Shown piece by piece: positions 2,082-6,830 of a DNA stretch of 9,871 bases (position 1 is the stretch's first letter; each line of letters begins with the position of its first letter). Below the pieces are notes generated by a model, which was not told where the DNA came from, did not search any database, and saw only the letters and a list, made by a program, of their open reading frames with translations. The stretch is taken from positions 1-9,871 of the forward strand of contig JAJRWB010000037.1 in NCBI GenBank assembly GCA_024276995.1, given 5' to 3'. The stretch comes from Candidatus Eiseniibacteriota bacterium. Its GTDB lineage: Bacteria > Orphanbacterota > Orphanbacteria > Orphanbacterales > Orphanbacteraceae. The translations under genes were made by a program, and so were the position numbers.

Positions 2082-2315
2082 TCAGAAAGTGGTTCCCTTT
2101 CGCTGACTCTCCCCCACGCCCACGGCGTGAAGGGGAAGTGTCGCCGCGGGACGACCGCTCGGGACGTTCTTCCGTCGCGTCGCCTCGCGCGGCCTTCCCG
2201 GTGTGAGCCGATCGACGCTCCTCTCCCACCTCGAGTTGATCGCGCAGATCTTACCGACCATGATGGCCACCACCATGTATAGCGCCGCGAGGAAAATCAG
2301 ATAGAAATAGATCAC
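2082..2315 (-). CDS. small single-pass membrane protein, last gene of the ParA-CBM cassette
   Basis: Not recognised as a known family. The 77-residue product begins with one strongly hydrophobic segment (residues 2-25, rich in Tyr, Leu, Val and Met). A basic, Pro/Arg-rich tail of about 50 residues follows and is predicted to be cytoplasmic by the positive-inside rule. Two features support real translation: the GTG start at 2315 overlaps the stop of the previous gene as GTGA, and a strong GGGGAGG ribosome site sits six bases before it. The basic tail may be poorly conserved, since its composition is what GC-rich sequence gives by chance; the hydrophobic head and the coupling are the stronger evidence. 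As the only membrane-spanning product in the cassette it could anchor the ParA-like or pseudo-MinD protein at the membrane (inference). Confidence 0.6.
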   Translation of the reverse strand: MIYFYLIFLAALYMVVAIMVGKICAINSRWERSVDRLTPGRPREATRRKNVPSGRPAATLPLHAVGVGESQRKGTTF

Positions 2316-2896
2316 CGCGTGCCTCCCCGGTTGCGGATGACGGAGAGTTCCCCTTCGAGTTCCCGGAAGAATGCCGCTTCCCGTTCGTCGAGGTCGTCGG
2401 GGGAGACTACCCGCTCGTTATCTCGATTCCACTCTTTCTCTCTTTCCCAAAGCACCGCGTTTTCTCCTTCCACGGTCCGGACGCGGCAGATCCTCATCCA
2501 GGCGACCCGCGAGAGCGCGAGCCCGCGAAGGGTATCGGCGAAGCGCCCATCGTAGCGGGGTGCGAGGACGAGGAGCACCGGCCCGTCGATACACCGCACC
2601 GCACGGTCGGGGAAGAGGCGGACGATGTACTCGCCCTCCCGCCTGAGCCACGAAACCGAGCGGGCGATGCGCCCCGCCTCGGCGGCGTTGAAGGAGACGA
2701 CTGCCTCCACGAGGGTGGCGATTCCCCCGCCGGAGAGGGCGAACATGGGGATCTCTTCCCCCCCGGGCAGGGGAAGGGGGGAGCGGAGAACCTCGATGTC
2801 GTCCCCCAGAACGCCGGGGCGCTCCCGCACGTGGACGAGGGCGTCATCGAGGCCGTGCGCTTCCTTCACGCGAAGCCATCGGACTGCTTCGTTCAT
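2312..2896 (-). CDS. uncharacterised 194-residue protein, cassette gene 3
   Basis: I do not recognise this protein with confidence. It appears soluble, with alternating strands and helices: a beta-rich N-terminal half (GDDIEVLRSPL at 31-41, IPMFALSGGG at 49-58), a helix at 59-85, and a core strand GPVLLVLAPRY (105-115) followed by a helix and a second strand VAWMRICRVRTV (131-142). The C-terminal 45 residues are charged and probably helical (EREKEWNRDNE, DLDEREAAFFRELEGEL). The GxVLLVLAPRY-helix-RICRVR order recalls the second half of PD-(D/E)XK nuclease-like proteins such as NucS-type or DUF91 folds, but no D...ExK active site is visible, so any such relation would be to an inactive form. 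The ATG at 2896 is chosen because GGAGGAGG lies ten bases upstream and it shares its A with the previous stop (TGATG). A longer in-frame opening back to 3082 would overlap the upstream gene by 187 bases and is unlikely. Confidence 0.7.
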   Translation of the reverse strand: MNEAVRWLRVKEAHGLDDALVHVRERPGVLGDDIEVLRSPLPLPGGEEIPMFALSGGGIATLVEAVVSFNAAEAGRIARSVSWLRREGEYIVRLFPDRAVRCIDGPVLLVLAPRYDGRFADTLRGLALSRVAWMRICRVRTVEGENAVLWEREKEWNRDNERVVSPDDLDEREAAFFRELEGELSVIRNRGGTR

Positions 2897-3594
2897 CACT
2901 TCAGCGCCTCCTCCAACCGTTGTGCGGCGGCGAGCAGTCCCGGCTCCCTTCGCCGCGAAACCCCCGCCACCAAGGAGGAGAGTCTCGATGCCATGTCGTC
3001 CTCCGAACCGAAGATACGCGGTTGCCTCCCGAGGAAGCACCGCGCCGCTTCGGCGAGGCGAATCGGCGCGATGCGCAGCCACTCATCGCTCCGGTCGCCG
3101 ACAGCGACGAGGAGCGGGTCGATACCGCACCGGGCACGGGACATTTCGCGGATGAAAAGATAAGCTTCTTCAAGCGATGGGATCTCCCCGGTGAAGAGGA
3201 GGAGCGCCTGGTCGGCGCACATCAGAATCGCCGACGCGATCGGTTCACCCTTCTCGCGAAGTGTCAGGAAGAGGAGATTGCCGCCGAGACGGTCGCGCAC
3301 CTCGCCGGGGAAACGTTCCGGCGCAACGCCGCGGGAGGGCGCGCCCGCCGAAGGCGCAAGGTGGAAAAGACCTCCATCCACCGCCGCGACGGTCGAGGAG
3401 AGTCTTTCCGCCGACAGGGAGCGCCGGACCTCGTGAAGATATGCTTCCCCCATCTCGCCCGCGGCGTTGCGCACCGCCACGATGGCGAAGGGGAGATCGT
3501 CGCGCCGCCGCGCCACGGGCGAGGAGAAGTAGATCCGCGACATCGCCTCGAGAGAGTCGGCGACCGAGCGGTCGGGCGGACGGGCGTTCGACAT
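2896..3594 (-). CDS. MinD/FlhG-like protein without a P-loop (putative pseudo-ATPase)
   Basis: A 232-residue soluble protein. Its second half reads like the C-terminal half of a MinD/FlhG/ParA ATPase. ASAILMCADQALLLFTGEIPSLEEAY (120-145) matches the 'ADEVLVVTTPEPTSLTDAYAL' region that follows Walker B. LLVAVGD (161-167), AARCFLGRQPRIFG (183-196) and the helical end 201-231 follow the family order. In the first half, FAIVAVRNAAGEMGEA (36-51) sits where the P-loop GGKGGVGKT should be but lacks the Lys-Thr pair. AVDGG (71-75) and NLLFLTL (106-112) fall where Walker A' and Walker B strands are expected, with the catalytic Asp missing from the latter. I infer a degenerate ATPase that may pair with the active ParA-CBM protein upstream, two bases away. 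The similarity is judged by eye; an unrelated alpha/beta protein remains possible. Confidence 0.6.
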   Translation of the reverse strand: MSNARPPDRSVADSLEAMSRIYFSSPVARRRDDLPFAIVAVRNAAGEMGEAYLHEVRRSLSAERLSSTVAAVDGGLFHLAPSAGAPSRGVAPERFPGEVRDRLGGNLLFLTLREKGEPIASAILMCADQALLLFTGEIPSLEEAYLFIREMSRARCGIDPLLVAVGDRSDEWLRIAPIRLAEAARCFLGRQPRIFGSEDDMASRLSSLVAGVSRRREPGLLAAAQRLEEALK

Positions 3595-3596
3595 GG

Positions 3597-4688
3597 CTAC
3601 TCGGCGCTCTTCGCGGCCGACACTTCCACCACGGAGTTCCGGTAGCCCGCCGCGCTCTCTTCGTACGGCATGGCGGGATCCTCGATCCAGGCGCCGTCCA
3701 CTACGAAGCGATACCGATAGCGGCCCGGCGGGAGGTCGACGTCGAGCACCCAGAGGCCGGCGTCCACATCGGCCTCCATCCTCCCCTCGATCGGGTTCCA
3801 GTCGTTGAACTCGCCCGCCACCTGGACGGTCGATGCCTCCGGAGCGTAAAGGCGGAACCGGACGACTCCACCGCGCACCATCGGCCCCGGCTGGCCTTCG
3901 TCCTCGGGCGGGTGCTCGTCGAGGGTGATCACCGGAACCGACTCGGTCAGCTCCGCCGCCAGGGCGAGGTAGTCGTCGTGCACGGTGGAGTTTCTTCGCA
4001 CCGCGCCGACCGGCACGCCGCGGGCGGCCGCTTCCTTCACGACCACCGAACAGCGGATCGACGTGGCGAAAAGCCTGTCGCCGAACTGCTCGGTCAGTTC
4101 CTCGTAGACCCGCCGCCCGTACCGTGTGCGCGGGTTGAAGAGCGTCGCAAGTGCCCGCACGGTGATCTGTTTCGCCATGTTCCTCTCCACCATGTCGACG
4201 GTGTCGAGAAACCGTTCGAGGCCGTGCAGCGAGAAGGAGGAACTCTCCACGGGAACGATCGCCTCGTCGGCGGCGACGAGGGCGTTGATCGTCAGGAAAC
4301 CGAGAGACGGGGCGCAGTCGATGAGCACGAAATCATACTCCTTCGGCAGCTCCCGAAGGGCGATGGCGAGCCTCGATTCCCGTTCCGGCTCGCCGGCGAG
4401 TTCCTGCTCCACCGACGCGAGGGTGATGTTCGACGGGGCGATGTCGCACCCCTCCATCACCGGGAGGATGATTTCGCTCATCGAAACGGCGGGACGCATC
4501 AGGGCGTCGCGCATCGACCGGCCGAGCATCGCCGTGTCGAGTCCGAGGGCGAGGGAAGCGTGTCCCTGTGGGTCGAGATCGACCAGGAGAACGGACCTCC
4601 CCGTTTCCGCGCACGCCGCGGCGAGGTTCACCGCGGTGGTCGTCTTGCCGCACCCACCTTTTTGATTCGCAATGGCAATGACATTCAT
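3597..4688 (-). CDS. ParA/Soj-type ATPase fused to a C-terminal AMPK-beta/CBM48 carbohydrate-binding domain
   Basis: Residues 1-255 form a complete ParA/Soj ATPase. They include the deviant Walker A KGGCGKTT (10-17, signature K10 and catalytic K15), Walker A' LLVDLDPQGHAS (34-45), Walker B FVLIDCAPSLG (120-130, D124) and the Soj-like stretch NPRTRYGRRVYEEL with the following strand and helix. A charged linker leads to residues 275-355, an E-set glycogen-binding domain. GEFNDW (W297), YRYRFVVDGAW (R327, W334), IEDP and N351 align with the AMPK-beta GSFNNW, YKFFVDGQW and NN positions that hold glycogen (W100, K126, W133, N150), with Lys replaced by Arg. Plain ParA proteins are about 250-270 residues, so the extra 100 are a true fusion. 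The ATG at 4688 has GGAGG nine bases upstream. First gene of a four-gene cassette. Likely role: ATP-driven positioning on the nucleoid of something that carries or binds alpha-glucan (inference). Confidence 0.92.
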   Translation of the reverse strand: MNVIAIANQKGGCGKTTTAVNLAAACAETGRSVLLVDLDPQGHASLALGLDTAMLGRSMRDALMRPAVSMSEIILPVMEGCDIAPSNITLASVEQELAGEPERESRLAIALRELPKEYDFVLIDCAPSLGFLTINALVAADEAIVPVESSSFSLHGLERFLDTVDMVERNMAKQITVRALATLFNPRTRYGRRVYEELTEQFGDRLFATSIRCSVVVKEAAARGVPVGAVRRNSTVHDDYLALAAELTESVPVITLDEHPPEDEGQPGPMVRGGVVRFRLYAPEASTVQVAGEFNDWNPIEGRMEADVDAGLWVLDVDLPPGRYRYRFVVDGAWIEDPAMPYEESAAGYRNSVVEVSAAKSAE

Positions 4689-4861
4689 CTGACGTTTCCT
4701 CCCGGGAGGCGGCTCATCGCTCCGTCCGGAAATGAAAATCCCCTCCGTCTTCCGGGGAGGGGATCGTTCGGCGGCGCACTCGCGCCAACCGGATACCGGC
4801 GGGAATCTATGACATGAAAAAAGCGGAGTACAATCATGGTTGTCGACCCTCCGCTGCGCAT
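4685..4861 (-). CDS. possible upstream ORF in the parA leader (58 codons, or 50 from an internal start)
   Basis: An open frame runs from ATG 4861 to a TGA at 4687-4685 that overlaps the parA ATG as ATGA. An internal ATG at 4837 has GGAGGG nine bases upstream, giving a 50-residue product beginning MIVLRFFHVID. The product is Arg/Pro/Gly-rich and unlike any protein I know, so it may matter through its translation rather than its peptide. Ribosomes moving through it would run over both terminator-like hairpins and then couple directly to parA. A stop-free run of this length is easy to get by chance in GC-rich DNA; the ribosome site and the exact ATGA junction are the only positive signs. Confidence 0.3.
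   Translation of the reverse strand: MRSGGSTTMIVLRFFHVIDSRRYPVGASAPPNDPLPGRRRGFSFPDGAMSRLPGGNVR
4698..4709 (-). promoter_or_regulatory. parA ribosome-binding site inside a 12-bp palindrome
   Basis: The parA ribosome site GGGAGG forms the second half of the perfect palindrome CCTCCCGGGAGG. The first half is complementary to it and could hide it in a tight hairpin (CCUC-CCGG-GAGG) or pair two transcripts together. It decides the parA start at 4688. Confidence 0.4.
4734..4764 (-). terminator. second terminator-like hairpin in the parA leader (distal)
   Basis: A perfect 9-bp stem, ATCCCCTCC (4746-4738 on the plus strand) with GGAGGGGAT (4764-4756), has a 9-base loop and is followed on the minus strand by TTTTCATTT. 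The T-run is weaker than at the proximal hairpin. It lies about 50 bases before the parA start. On the minus-strand RNA the 5' arm carries CCUCCC, which can also pair with the GGGAGG of the parA ribosome site. Confidence 0.45.
4817..4855 (-). terminator. Rho-independent terminator-like hairpin in the parA leader (proximal)
   Basis: Minus-strand arms AGCGGAG (4855-4849) and CTCCGCT (4828-4822) form a 7-bp stem. The loop holds a smaller ACAA/TTGT stem (4843-4840 with 4833-4830), and a run of six T (4822-4817) follows directly. No minus-strand gene ends upstream of it: the only upstream DNA is the start of a plus-strand gene. It therefore most likely ends a short leader RNA of about 70 bases or acts as an attenuator. 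Confidence 0.6.
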
Positions 4862-4923: not shown

Positions 4924-5021
4924 GAAAAAAATGAGTATTGGAAAAAAGAATAAGCCCTTTACCTGTCAATCAAAAGCCGTTTTTCGCGGGCGGGCGACCC
5001 GGCGAACCGGGTTCACCGGTT

Positions 5022-6830
5022 ATGCTACAATCGCTCTTCGTGAACACGAGGTGGAACAGCCGGGCGCTTCTGGGAGGGGCGCTCCTTCTCGCCGTGATCG
5101 TGGCCTATCTCCCGGCCACAAGGGCCGGGTTCATCTGGGACGACGATTCGTACATCACCGGCAACGCTACGCTCCGTTCGGTAGACGGACTCAGACGGAT
5201 CTGGTTCGAACCGGGGGCGACGACGCAATACTACCCGGCGGTACATACGCTCTTCTGGTTGGAGTACCGCGTCTGGGGGGTCGCCCCGGCGGGTTACCAC
5301 TGGATCAATATCCTTCTCCACGGCGCAAACGCGGCGCTCCTCTTTCTCTTGCTCCGCCGGCTCGGCGTACCCGGCGCGCTATTCGCGGCATCGATCTTCG
5401 CCCTTCACCCTGTGCACGTCGAATCGGTCGCATGGATCACCGAGGGAAAGAATACGCTTTCCGGGTTCTTCTACCTCGCATCGTTCCTCGCCTATCTCCG
5501 TCACATCCGAGAGCGCCGCGCCGTGACGTATGCCGTCGCTTTCGCCCTTTTTCTTCTCGCCCTCCTCTCGAAAACGGTGACCGCCTCTCTTCCCGCGGCC
5601 ATCGGGATCGCTCTTCTTTGGAGAGACGGCCGCGTGGAAAAACGTGTCATCATGGAACTGCTTCCTTTCTTTCTCGCCGGAATCCTCGCCGGCGCCGGCA
5701 CGGCGTGGATCGAGAAGCATTACCTCGGCGCAGGCGGCGAGGAGTGGACGCTCTCGTTCATGCAAAGGCTCGCCGTCGCCGGGCGCGCCCTTTGGTTCTA
5801 CGCGGGAAAACTCGCCTGGCCGGCGCGTCTTACATTCATTTACCCCAGGTGGGAGACCGACGCCCTCGGGGGAACGGCGCTCCTCTACCCGGCGGCGGCG
5901 CTCGCCGTCGGGGTCCTCTTGTGGCGATTCCGCCGCCCCCTCGGCACGGGACCGCTCGCGGCGGTCCTCTTCTTCGGCGGCACCCTCGCGCCGGCGCTCG
6001 GGTTCATCGACGTCTACCCGTTCCGTTTCTCCTTCGTGGCCGATCATTTCCAGTACCTGGCGAGCATCGGCCTGATCGTCCTGTTCGCGGCATCCCTCGC
6101 TTCGTGGACGAGACGTATTCCGCTCCGGCGCACCACGGCGGCGGCGCTGCTCCTCTGCGCCCTCCTCGGAACGCTCACCTGGAGACAGTGCGGCGTTTAC
6201 ACCGATCTCGAGACACTCTGGAGCGACACGATCGAGAAGAACGATCGGTGCTGGATGGCATTCAATAACCTGGGACAGCTTCTCGCCGCGCGGGGGGAGA
6301 CGAAGCGGGCGATCGGACTCTATCGAAAGGCGATCGAAGTGAAGCCGGATTACGATAAGGCGCTCAACAACCTCGGCGTCGCCCTCGACGCGACGGGACG
6401 CCGTCGCGAGGCGGTGGCCCTCTACGAGCGGGTCCTCGCCGCGAACGGGGAGAACGTGGTCGCGTTGAACAACCTCGTGATGGCGCTCACCGGGCTCGGG
6501 CGATACGACGAGGCGATCCGCCGGGCCGTCGAGGGCCTGCGGATCCGGCCGGGGTCGGTCGAGTTGACCACCAATCTCGGGGTGGCGCTCGCCCGGAAAG
6601 GAGATTTCGACGGCGCCGTGAGTGCGCTGCGCCGCGCCGTTTCGCTCACCCCCCGGGACGCGCAGGTCCACTACCGTCTCGCCACCCTTCTCGAGCAAGG
6701 AAACCTTCGACACGAGGCGATCTCCGAATACCGCGAAACCCTCCGTATCGACCGCTTCCACGCCGGCGCGCGCGAAGGCATCGCGCGGCTCGCCGATCAA
6801 GGGCGACCCGATCCGGCCGATGAACCGTAG
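5022..6830 (+). CDS. TMTC/DUF1736-like multi-pass glycosyltransferase with five C-terminal TPRs
   Basis: Resembles the bacterial relatives of eukaryotic TMTC1-4 (O-mannosyltransferases; GT-C fold with TPRs). Residues 15-395 form about ten membrane segments. WDDD at 39-42 is the first-loop acidic motif expected to act in catalysis. FALHPVHVESVAWITEGKN (126-144) and ADHFQYLASIG (340-350) are family hallmarks. Residues 410-579 contain five 34-residue TPRs in register (410, 444, 478, 512, 546) that may bind the acceptor protein. The frame is open from TTG 4938. I prefer ATG 5022 because the preceding bases are AT-rich and noncoding in character; GTG 5040 is also possible and would follow an extended -10 box. 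None of these has a good ribosome site. The metallophosphoesterase starts 48 bases downstream. Target and sugar donor unknown. Confidence 0.88.
   Translation: MLQSLFVNTRWNSRALLGGALLLAVIVAYLPATRAGFIWDDDSYITGNATLRSVDGLRRIWFEPGATTQYYPAVHTLFWLEYRVWGVAPAGYHWINILLHGANAALLFLLLRRLGVPGALFAASIFALHPVHVESVAWITEGKNTLSGFFYLASFLAYLRHIRERRAVTYAVAFALFLLALLSKTVTASLPAAIGIALLWRDGRVEKRVIMELLPFFLAGILAGAGTAWIEKHYLGAGGEEWTLSFMQRLAVAGRALWFYAGKLAWPARLTFIYPRWETDALGGTALLYPAAALAVGVLLWRFRRPLGTGPLAAVLFFGGTLAPALGFIDVYPFRFSFVADHFQYLASIGLIVLFAASLASWTRRIPLRRTTAAALLLCALLGTLTWRQCGVYTDLETLWSDTIEKNDRCWMAFNNLGQLLAARGETKRAIGLYRKAIEVKPDYDKALNNLGVALDATGRRREAVALYERVLAANGENVVALNNLVMALTGLGRYDEAIRRAVEGLRIRPGSVELTTNLGVALARKGDFDGAVSALRRAVSLTPRDAQVHYRLATLLEQGNLRHEAISEYRETLRIDRFHAGAREGIARLADQGRPDPADEP
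5023..5031 (+). promoter_or_regulatory. possible extended -10 box (TGCTACAAT) at the TMTC-like gene start
   Basis: TGCTACAAT fits TGnTATAAT with one mismatch. It has no -35 at the expected place. RNA would start near 5038, two bases before the in-frame GTG 5040, giving a leaderless message. If real, ATG 5022 cannot be the start from this promoter. Confidence 0.3.

Follow-up and report, generated by a model that had tools for sequence, protein, structure and literature searches.

The described systems closest to the locus studied here are the ParA/Soj ATPases with their ParB/Spo0J partners, the positioning systems built on ParA/MinD-type ATPases, and the glycogen-binding domain of AMPK-beta. 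In M. xanthus ParB, residues L11, L15, L18, and I19 are needed to bind ParA and R13 is needed to activate it; a 20-residue ParB peptide is sufficient to stimulate hydrolysis by ParA (PMC12462528). The partners in positioning systems bind the ATPase with their N-termini, and the remainder of the partner binds the cargo (PMC10241942). In AMPK-beta, the residues contacting the sugar are W100, K126, W133, L146, and T148 (PMC2642990). A preliminary description of the present locus knew of no characterised protein that pairs a ParA ATPase with a glycogen-binding domain; none, nor anything else relevant to the pairing, was found in the literature searched. What is new here, as predicted from sequence, is a system of a ParA and its partner, for positioning or regulation, in which the ATPase bears a putative alpha-glucan-binding module.

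The window, i.e. the whole 9,871-nucleotide stretch of DNA that was analyzed, encodes this protein on the minus strand. The product of 3597-4688 is a ParA/MinD ATPase carrying a CBM48 domain, and is termed the fusion below. Its features were assigned as follows:

4697-4703, minus strand: Shine-Dalgarno-like GGGAGGA, 5' of the fusion start (read from the sequence)
3597-4688, minus strand: ParA-CBM48 fusion gene, 363 aa (open reading frame and Pfam; AlphaFold; orthologues in 6/6 relatives)
3927-4688, minus strand: ParA/Soj ATPase domain, residues 1-254 (AAA_31, E 4.2e-53; Soj structural matches)
3897-3926, minus strand: linker, residues 255-264, presumably flexible (pLDDT <50 at residues 255-261)
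3618-3896, minus strand: AMPK-beta-type CBM48/E-set domain, residues 265-357 (AMPK1_CBM and AMPK-beta2 matches; invariance of W297 and W334)
3798-3800, minus strand: codon of W297
3687-3689, minus strand: codon of W334

The preliminary description had placed the open reading frame at exactly these coordinates and had read it as a ParA ATPase joined to an AMPK-beta/CBM48-like domain; both statements proved right. It had overlooked the strand, the broad occurrence of the fusion, and the partner encoded in its operon. Residues 1-176 were matched by the Pfam family AAA_31 (E 4.2e-53) and residues 284-359 by AMPK1_CBM (E 5.6e-13; 49.3 bits, against a curated cut-off of 26.8), with CBM_48 as the second-choice match of the C-terminal part (E 6e-10). 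Among solved structures, ParA and Soj were retrieved by the N-terminal part, with 8ray as the best match at E 9e-45; the CBMs of AMPK-beta were retrieved by the C-terminal part. An AlphaFold model built from 81 orthologues had a mean pLDDT of 92.4 and a pTM of 0.74; in it, a mostly beta domain is connected to the alpha/beta ATPase through residues 255-261, which have pLDDT <50. The ATPase superposed on Soj structures with Z-scores of 36-41 and rmsd values of 1.2-1.7 over 241-251 residues, and BcsQ was matched at Z 27. The C-terminal part was modeled at high confidence as an all-beta domain; the structural matches listed pertain to the ParA domain, and the E-set fold rests on the sequence matches and the predicted strands. 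All of the ParA residues named earlier (K10, K15, D37, D39, and D124) were present and invariant in 81 fusions, an invariance that was partly selected in the stretch NQKGGCGK, which had served as a search peptide. The ParA part thus has the motifs and the predicted fold of an active Soj-like ATPase.

The fusion is widespread across many bacterial phyla. It was found in 7/7 sampled genomes of the organism's own phylum, where the six relatives were 57-66% identical to it. The best 80 matches in the genome collection, nearly all from MAGs, were 37-57% identical and covered the fusion over all or nearly all of its length, and the titles of fusion records included Omnitrophota, Eisenbacteria, Zixibacteria, Desulfobacterales, Myxococcales, Planctomycetales, Rokubacteria, and Latescibacterota, along with others. 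For Omnitrophota, a sample of 145 genomes was drawn from the phylum of one such locus; 101 matched at the threshold of E <1e-100, and four of these matches ended before the CBM, leaving about 97/145 fusions. The corresponding samples of Myxococcota and Desulfobacterota yielded fusions in 20 of 112 genomes and six full-length fusions in 118 genomes, respectively. Because full-length homologues occur in many phyla, chance or an assembly error was ruled out as the origin of the fusion.

The C-terminal domain was compared with AMPK-beta residue by residue. As the preliminary description had proposed, W297, R327, W334, and N351 aligned with W100, K126, W133, and N150 in the match that phmmer gave to AMPK-beta2 (E 1.6e-9). 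The domain therefore keeps the two main sugar-stacking tryptophans of AMPK-beta, with a basic residue at the place of K126. Across 81 fusions, W297, W334, Y326, D337, F294, and G322 were invariant; the sequences had been fetched in part with the peptides NQKGGCGK, EFNDWNPI, and AWIEDPAM, a match to one of which sufficed, so that invariance within these stretches is partly selected. Position 327 was R, K, or Q in 44, 26, and 11 fusions, and position 351 was N in 49 and D in 32. The equivalents of L146 and T148 were not kept in the window, being A347 and Y349; position 347 is F or Y in most relatives.

The genomic surroundings bear on what the domain may bind. The glycogen synthase GlgA was present in 7/7 genomes of the own phylum, with GH57 genes close by. 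At one Desulfobacterota locus (L114), the same-strand gene upstream of the fusion encodes part of a glycogen synthase joined to a phosphorylase. In Omnitrophota, the fusion was commoner in genomes having glycogen synthase (93/126 v. 8/19, p 0.008), a weakly informative difference given that these genomes are incomplete and related and that incompleteness gives the same trend. A Pfam tally of 110 fusion neighbors outside Omnitrophota returned no recurrent alpha-glucan family. Within the own genome, the CBMs most like that of the fusion (46-48% identity) include those of a GH13 alpha-amylase. That gene (L118:2976-6413, contig C27) has three tandem AMPK-type CBMs, and its contig also holds glycogen synthase and GH57 genes. 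Another gene (L119:3008-3586, contig C31) encodes 193 aa with a possible anti-sigma-like N-terminus, a transmembrane-like segment, and a C-terminal AMPK1_CBM.

Binding of alpha-glucan by the fusion CBM is moderately likely. Alternatively, the C-terminal domain could be an E-set module that serves protein-protein contact or the dimer geometry of the ATPase and binds no glucan. This explanation accords with the presence, in this genome, of AMPK1_CBM-like E-set domains on unrelated envelope and membrane proteins, with the loss of the L146 and T148 contacts, and with the possibility that some conserved residues (G322, D331, Y326) are structural. However, W297 and W334, whose AMPK-beta counterparts touch sugar, do not vary in any of the 81/81 fusions, which come from many phyla; position 327 is K or R in 70/81, and GH57 and glycogen genes adjoin some loci. 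A pure contact module is accordingly considered unlikely.

A glucan-binding ATPase remains the favored reading, and its operon supplies a candidate partner. A conserved operon begins with the fusion and continues with gene 2 and gene 3, all on the minus strand; the gap between the stop codon of the fusion and the start of gene 2 is 2 nt, and the order of the three genes recurs in the window's family and in other phyla. The features of the two downstream genes are:

2896-3594, minus strand: gene 2, the partner candidate, 232 aa (position conserved in family f1 and in other phyla)
3520-3564, minus strand: N-terminal motif of gene 2, VADSLEAMSRIYFSS, the counterpart of LGRGLEDISHLFLS in relatives
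2899-3489, minus strand: MinD/ParA-like body of gene 2, degenerate and without the P-loop (profile-profile comparison)
2312-2896, minus strand: gene 3, 194 aa, whose start overlaps the gene 2 stop as TGATG (homologues in the same place across phyla)
2483-2854, minus strand: PD-(D/E)XK-like domain of gene 3, NucS/EndoMS C-terminal type, catalytic motif lost (AlphaFold and structural matches)

On the other side of the fusion, a divergent PMT/TPR glycosyltransferase-like gene adjoins it (4938-6830, plus strand). The same type of gene was observed in the window's family (e.g. L020:5977-7947), and relatives lie near some Omnitrophota loci.

Whether the fusion stays beside the same partners had been posed as a question in the preliminary description. 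A gene with an N-terminal motif adjoins the fusion at 66 of 81 loci, 31 of them with the gene downstream and 35 with it upstream. A loose form of the downstream motif was present in 29 of the 72 genes at position +1, compared to 6 of 877 other genes of the loci; the ParB-like pattern LG[RK]G[LI] was present in 11/42 partners and 0/943 other genes (p 2e-16). The motif takes the form LGRGLEDISHLFLS and variants in Desulfobacterota, Eisenbacteria, Rokubacteria, and others, and PRDLADVLHYFLPE in Myxococcota; in the window it is SLEAMSRIYFSS. The ParB of the own genome starts with MTKRVLGRGLEALLS. The LGRGLEDIS motif of relatives places L, R, L, and I at the positions of ParB L11, R13, L15, and L18, which are critical for binding or activating ParA. 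Compared to the L.R.L..L of ParB, the motif of the window's gene 2 has V11, L15, and M18 but D13 in place of R13, making the match weaker there. Five further Desulfobacterota fusion loci came from the genome sample (L112-L116): L113-L116 have a motif-bearing partner directly downstream, and L112 has no same-strand partner in that place. This operon partner with its ParB-like N-terminal motif is the best evidence for a ParA-partner system.

The surface on which such a motif would dock was also inspected. The partner pocket of the fusion ATPase stays hydrophobic (L129, F131, I134, M166, M171), and the V116 position of the pocket is Q95 in 75/81 fusions. R187 is invariant. The equivalent of the DNA-contacting R238 of M. 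xanthus ParA is K or R in 70/81 relatives; in the window it is V216, and it is V or I within the window's family. Because of V216 and of D13 in the partner motif, predicted nucleoid binding and ParB-like activation are least certain in the window's own species.

Beyond the motif, the body of gene 2 resembles a degenerate ParA/MinD protein (probability 96.4, E 1.3e-9 by profile-profile comparison). Some relatives of gene 2 keep the P-loop, and the one at locus L032 matches CbiA (E 6.6e-10). No Pfam or NCBIfam family matched gene 2, and neither a ParB/Srx CTPase fold nor an HTH was found in it; gene 2 is not a ParB, though its N-terminus may work in a ParB-like way. The body of the partner varies. 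At four loci (L023, L037, L050, L063), the ParB-like motif is followed by a Cys-rich domain in place of the MinD-like body; in other lineages (L046, L058, L089, L034), the gene 3 domain follows the motif with no body between them. This second architecture ties genes 2 and 3 together; gene 3 is also present in L114 and L115.

Gene 3 was modeled with AlphaFold (pLDDT 85.8). The model matched the C-terminal domain of NucS/EndoMS (2vld, 5gke) with a Z-score of 11.5 and rmsd values of 2.4-2.8 over 107-113 residues, and with a Foldseek E of 2e-4. The catalytic motif of NucS/EndoMS-type nucleases is D...ExK. It is not kept in gene 3: the window has EEIPMFAL...LVEAVV, and relatives have IDLLA...(I/V)D with no K. 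Because this motif is lost, gene 3, despite its predicted NucS fold, is not a NucS nuclease and is probably a non-catalytic binding domain.

Four Desulfobacterota ParAs that are nested in the fusion clade (L108-L111) have neither the CBM nor a motif-bearing neighbor. Since these CBM-less proteins are also without the partner gene, the pattern suggests that the CBM and the partner go together, with one clade, and hence one event, as its basis. The same four ParAs have a different, acidic C-terminal tail.

Omnitrophota present another arrangement. The 35 loci with a motif-bearing gene directly upstream of the fusion are nearly all from this phylum. The upstream gene starts like IYEHLAKIYLDAS and continues with a run of basic residues, after which a transmembrane-like segment is found in 34/35 of these genes; the outer domain of the protein had no clear Pfam match. 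The Omnitrophota partner is likely this upstream membrane protein. A GH57 gene lies just upstream of the partner gene in 14 loci, again nearly all Omnitrophota. In a tree of the ATPase domains, the upstream-partner loci, together with four loci lacking an assigned partner, formed one group (support 0.87). When scored against each other, the upstream and downstream motifs did no better than background, and no claim is made that they are the same; members of the window's family (L010, L013, L020) scored with the upstream motif too, so that a few sequences score with both. Separately, three contigs of the Omnitrophota sample (G007:C4, G225:C3, G233:C6) held open frames of 30,185, 37,731, and 57,099 codons with glycosyltransferase-5-like stretches.

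The neighborhoods also bear on a second alternative, in which the fusion is a metabolic regulator and not a positioner: glucan on the CBM would alter the state of the ATPase or its dimer, and the dimer would act on a transcription factor. The action of FleN on FleQ is a model for regulation of this type, and FleN was among the structural matches of the fusion ATPase. In Myxococcota loci, and also in L113, the gene that immediately precedes the fusion on its strand is of the MerR type (such genes were observed at L048, L053, L067, L088, L099, and L113), and ECF sigma genes occur 3-4 genes downstream in Myxococcota. Further, AMPK is inhibited by glycogen via the same type of domain (PMC2642990). 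The MerR and sigma genes are nevertheless absent from most loci, including the window, and the conserved neighbor is the motif-bearing partner; a purely regulatory role is thus improbable. That the fusion is a DNA- or plasmid-partitioning ParA with a CBM gained by chance is very improbable: although Soj/ParA gave the highest similarity and the partner motif is like the ParB N-terminus, a separate parAB pair is located elsewhere in the genome (L002), gene 2 matched no Pfam family and has neither the Srx nor the HTH domain of ParB, and the fusion is conserved over phyla in chromosome-like contexts.

The reading preferred here is a ParA/MinD-type system based on the ParA-CBM48 fusion, triggered by its partner, with the CBM tied to glycogen as cargo or signal; we give it about an even chance of being correct. 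In this scheme, the N-terminal peptide of gene 2 would dock at the edge of the ParA dimer and trigger ATP hydrolysis, as ParB does. By analogy to ParB, stimulation of the fusion ATPase by gene 2 is quite probable. The remainder of the gene 2 protein and the gene 3 protein would bind cargo or matrix, and the CBM would tie the ATPase to cytoplasmic alpha-1,4-glucan (glycogen). Glycogen would then be either the thing positioned or a signal that sets the place or state of the ATPase; taken singly, its role as cargo is rather doubtful, and its role as signal is doubtful to the same degree. The preliminary proposal of a positioning ATPase with a glucan sensor, or of glycogen positioning, is plausible. 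A more specific version, in which a dedicated storage-polysaccharide partition machine exists in many phyla, its ParA holding glycogen granules by its own CBM and being cycled by the operon partner, with the effect of spacing the granules inside a cell or among cells, is advanced tentatively.

The sharing of glycogen between bacterial daughters and the action of carbohydrate status on cell organization are little understood. Should glycogen be what the CBM binds, the family would offer a candidate alpha-glucan system of the ParA type, for which the partner, the activation peptide, and the mutants of interest are already defined. The loci also add to the candidate partners of ParA a family that joins a ParB-like peptide to pseudo-MinD, pseudo-NucS, or Cys-rich domains, and these joinings show how ParA systems may acquire new cargos.

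The system was finally compared with those already known. Like ParA/Soj with ParB/Spo0J, it has deviant Walker motifs, the same fold (Z 36-41), and activation that probably proceeds through a short N-terminal partner motif (of the LGRGL type in relatives); unlike them, it has a C-terminal CBM48, its gene 2 is without the ParB CTPase and HTH, the own-genome parAB is separate, and the DNA-contacting Arg/Lys is Val in the window's fusion. The glycogen-binding domain of AMPK-beta is similar in sequence (E 1.6e-9), in the equivalents of W100, K126, W133, and N150, and in being attached to a nucleotide-dependent switch protein, whereas the putative glucan-binding domain of the fusion sits on a ParA ATPase and not in a kinase complex, and does not keep L146/T148. 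McdA/McdB, PpfA, and PomX/Y/Z likewise pair a ParA/MinD ATPase with a partner that activates it through its N-terminus and uses its body to bind cargo (PMC10241942); there it is the partner that binds the cargo, whereas here the ATPase has a domain that putatively binds glucan, and gene 2 has a pseudo-MinD body. PhaM, which acts on PHB granules, similarly links a storage granule to the nucleoid (PMC3556143), but it is not known as an ATPase, and the polymer is different. The C-terminal domain of NucS/EndoMS shares its fold with gene 3 (Z 11.5), which has lost D...ExK and has no NucS N-terminal domain. BcsQ (Z 27) also connects a MinD-like ATPase to a polysaccharide system, but it is more distant than Soj and is without a CBM, and no cellulose genes were seen beside the fusion.
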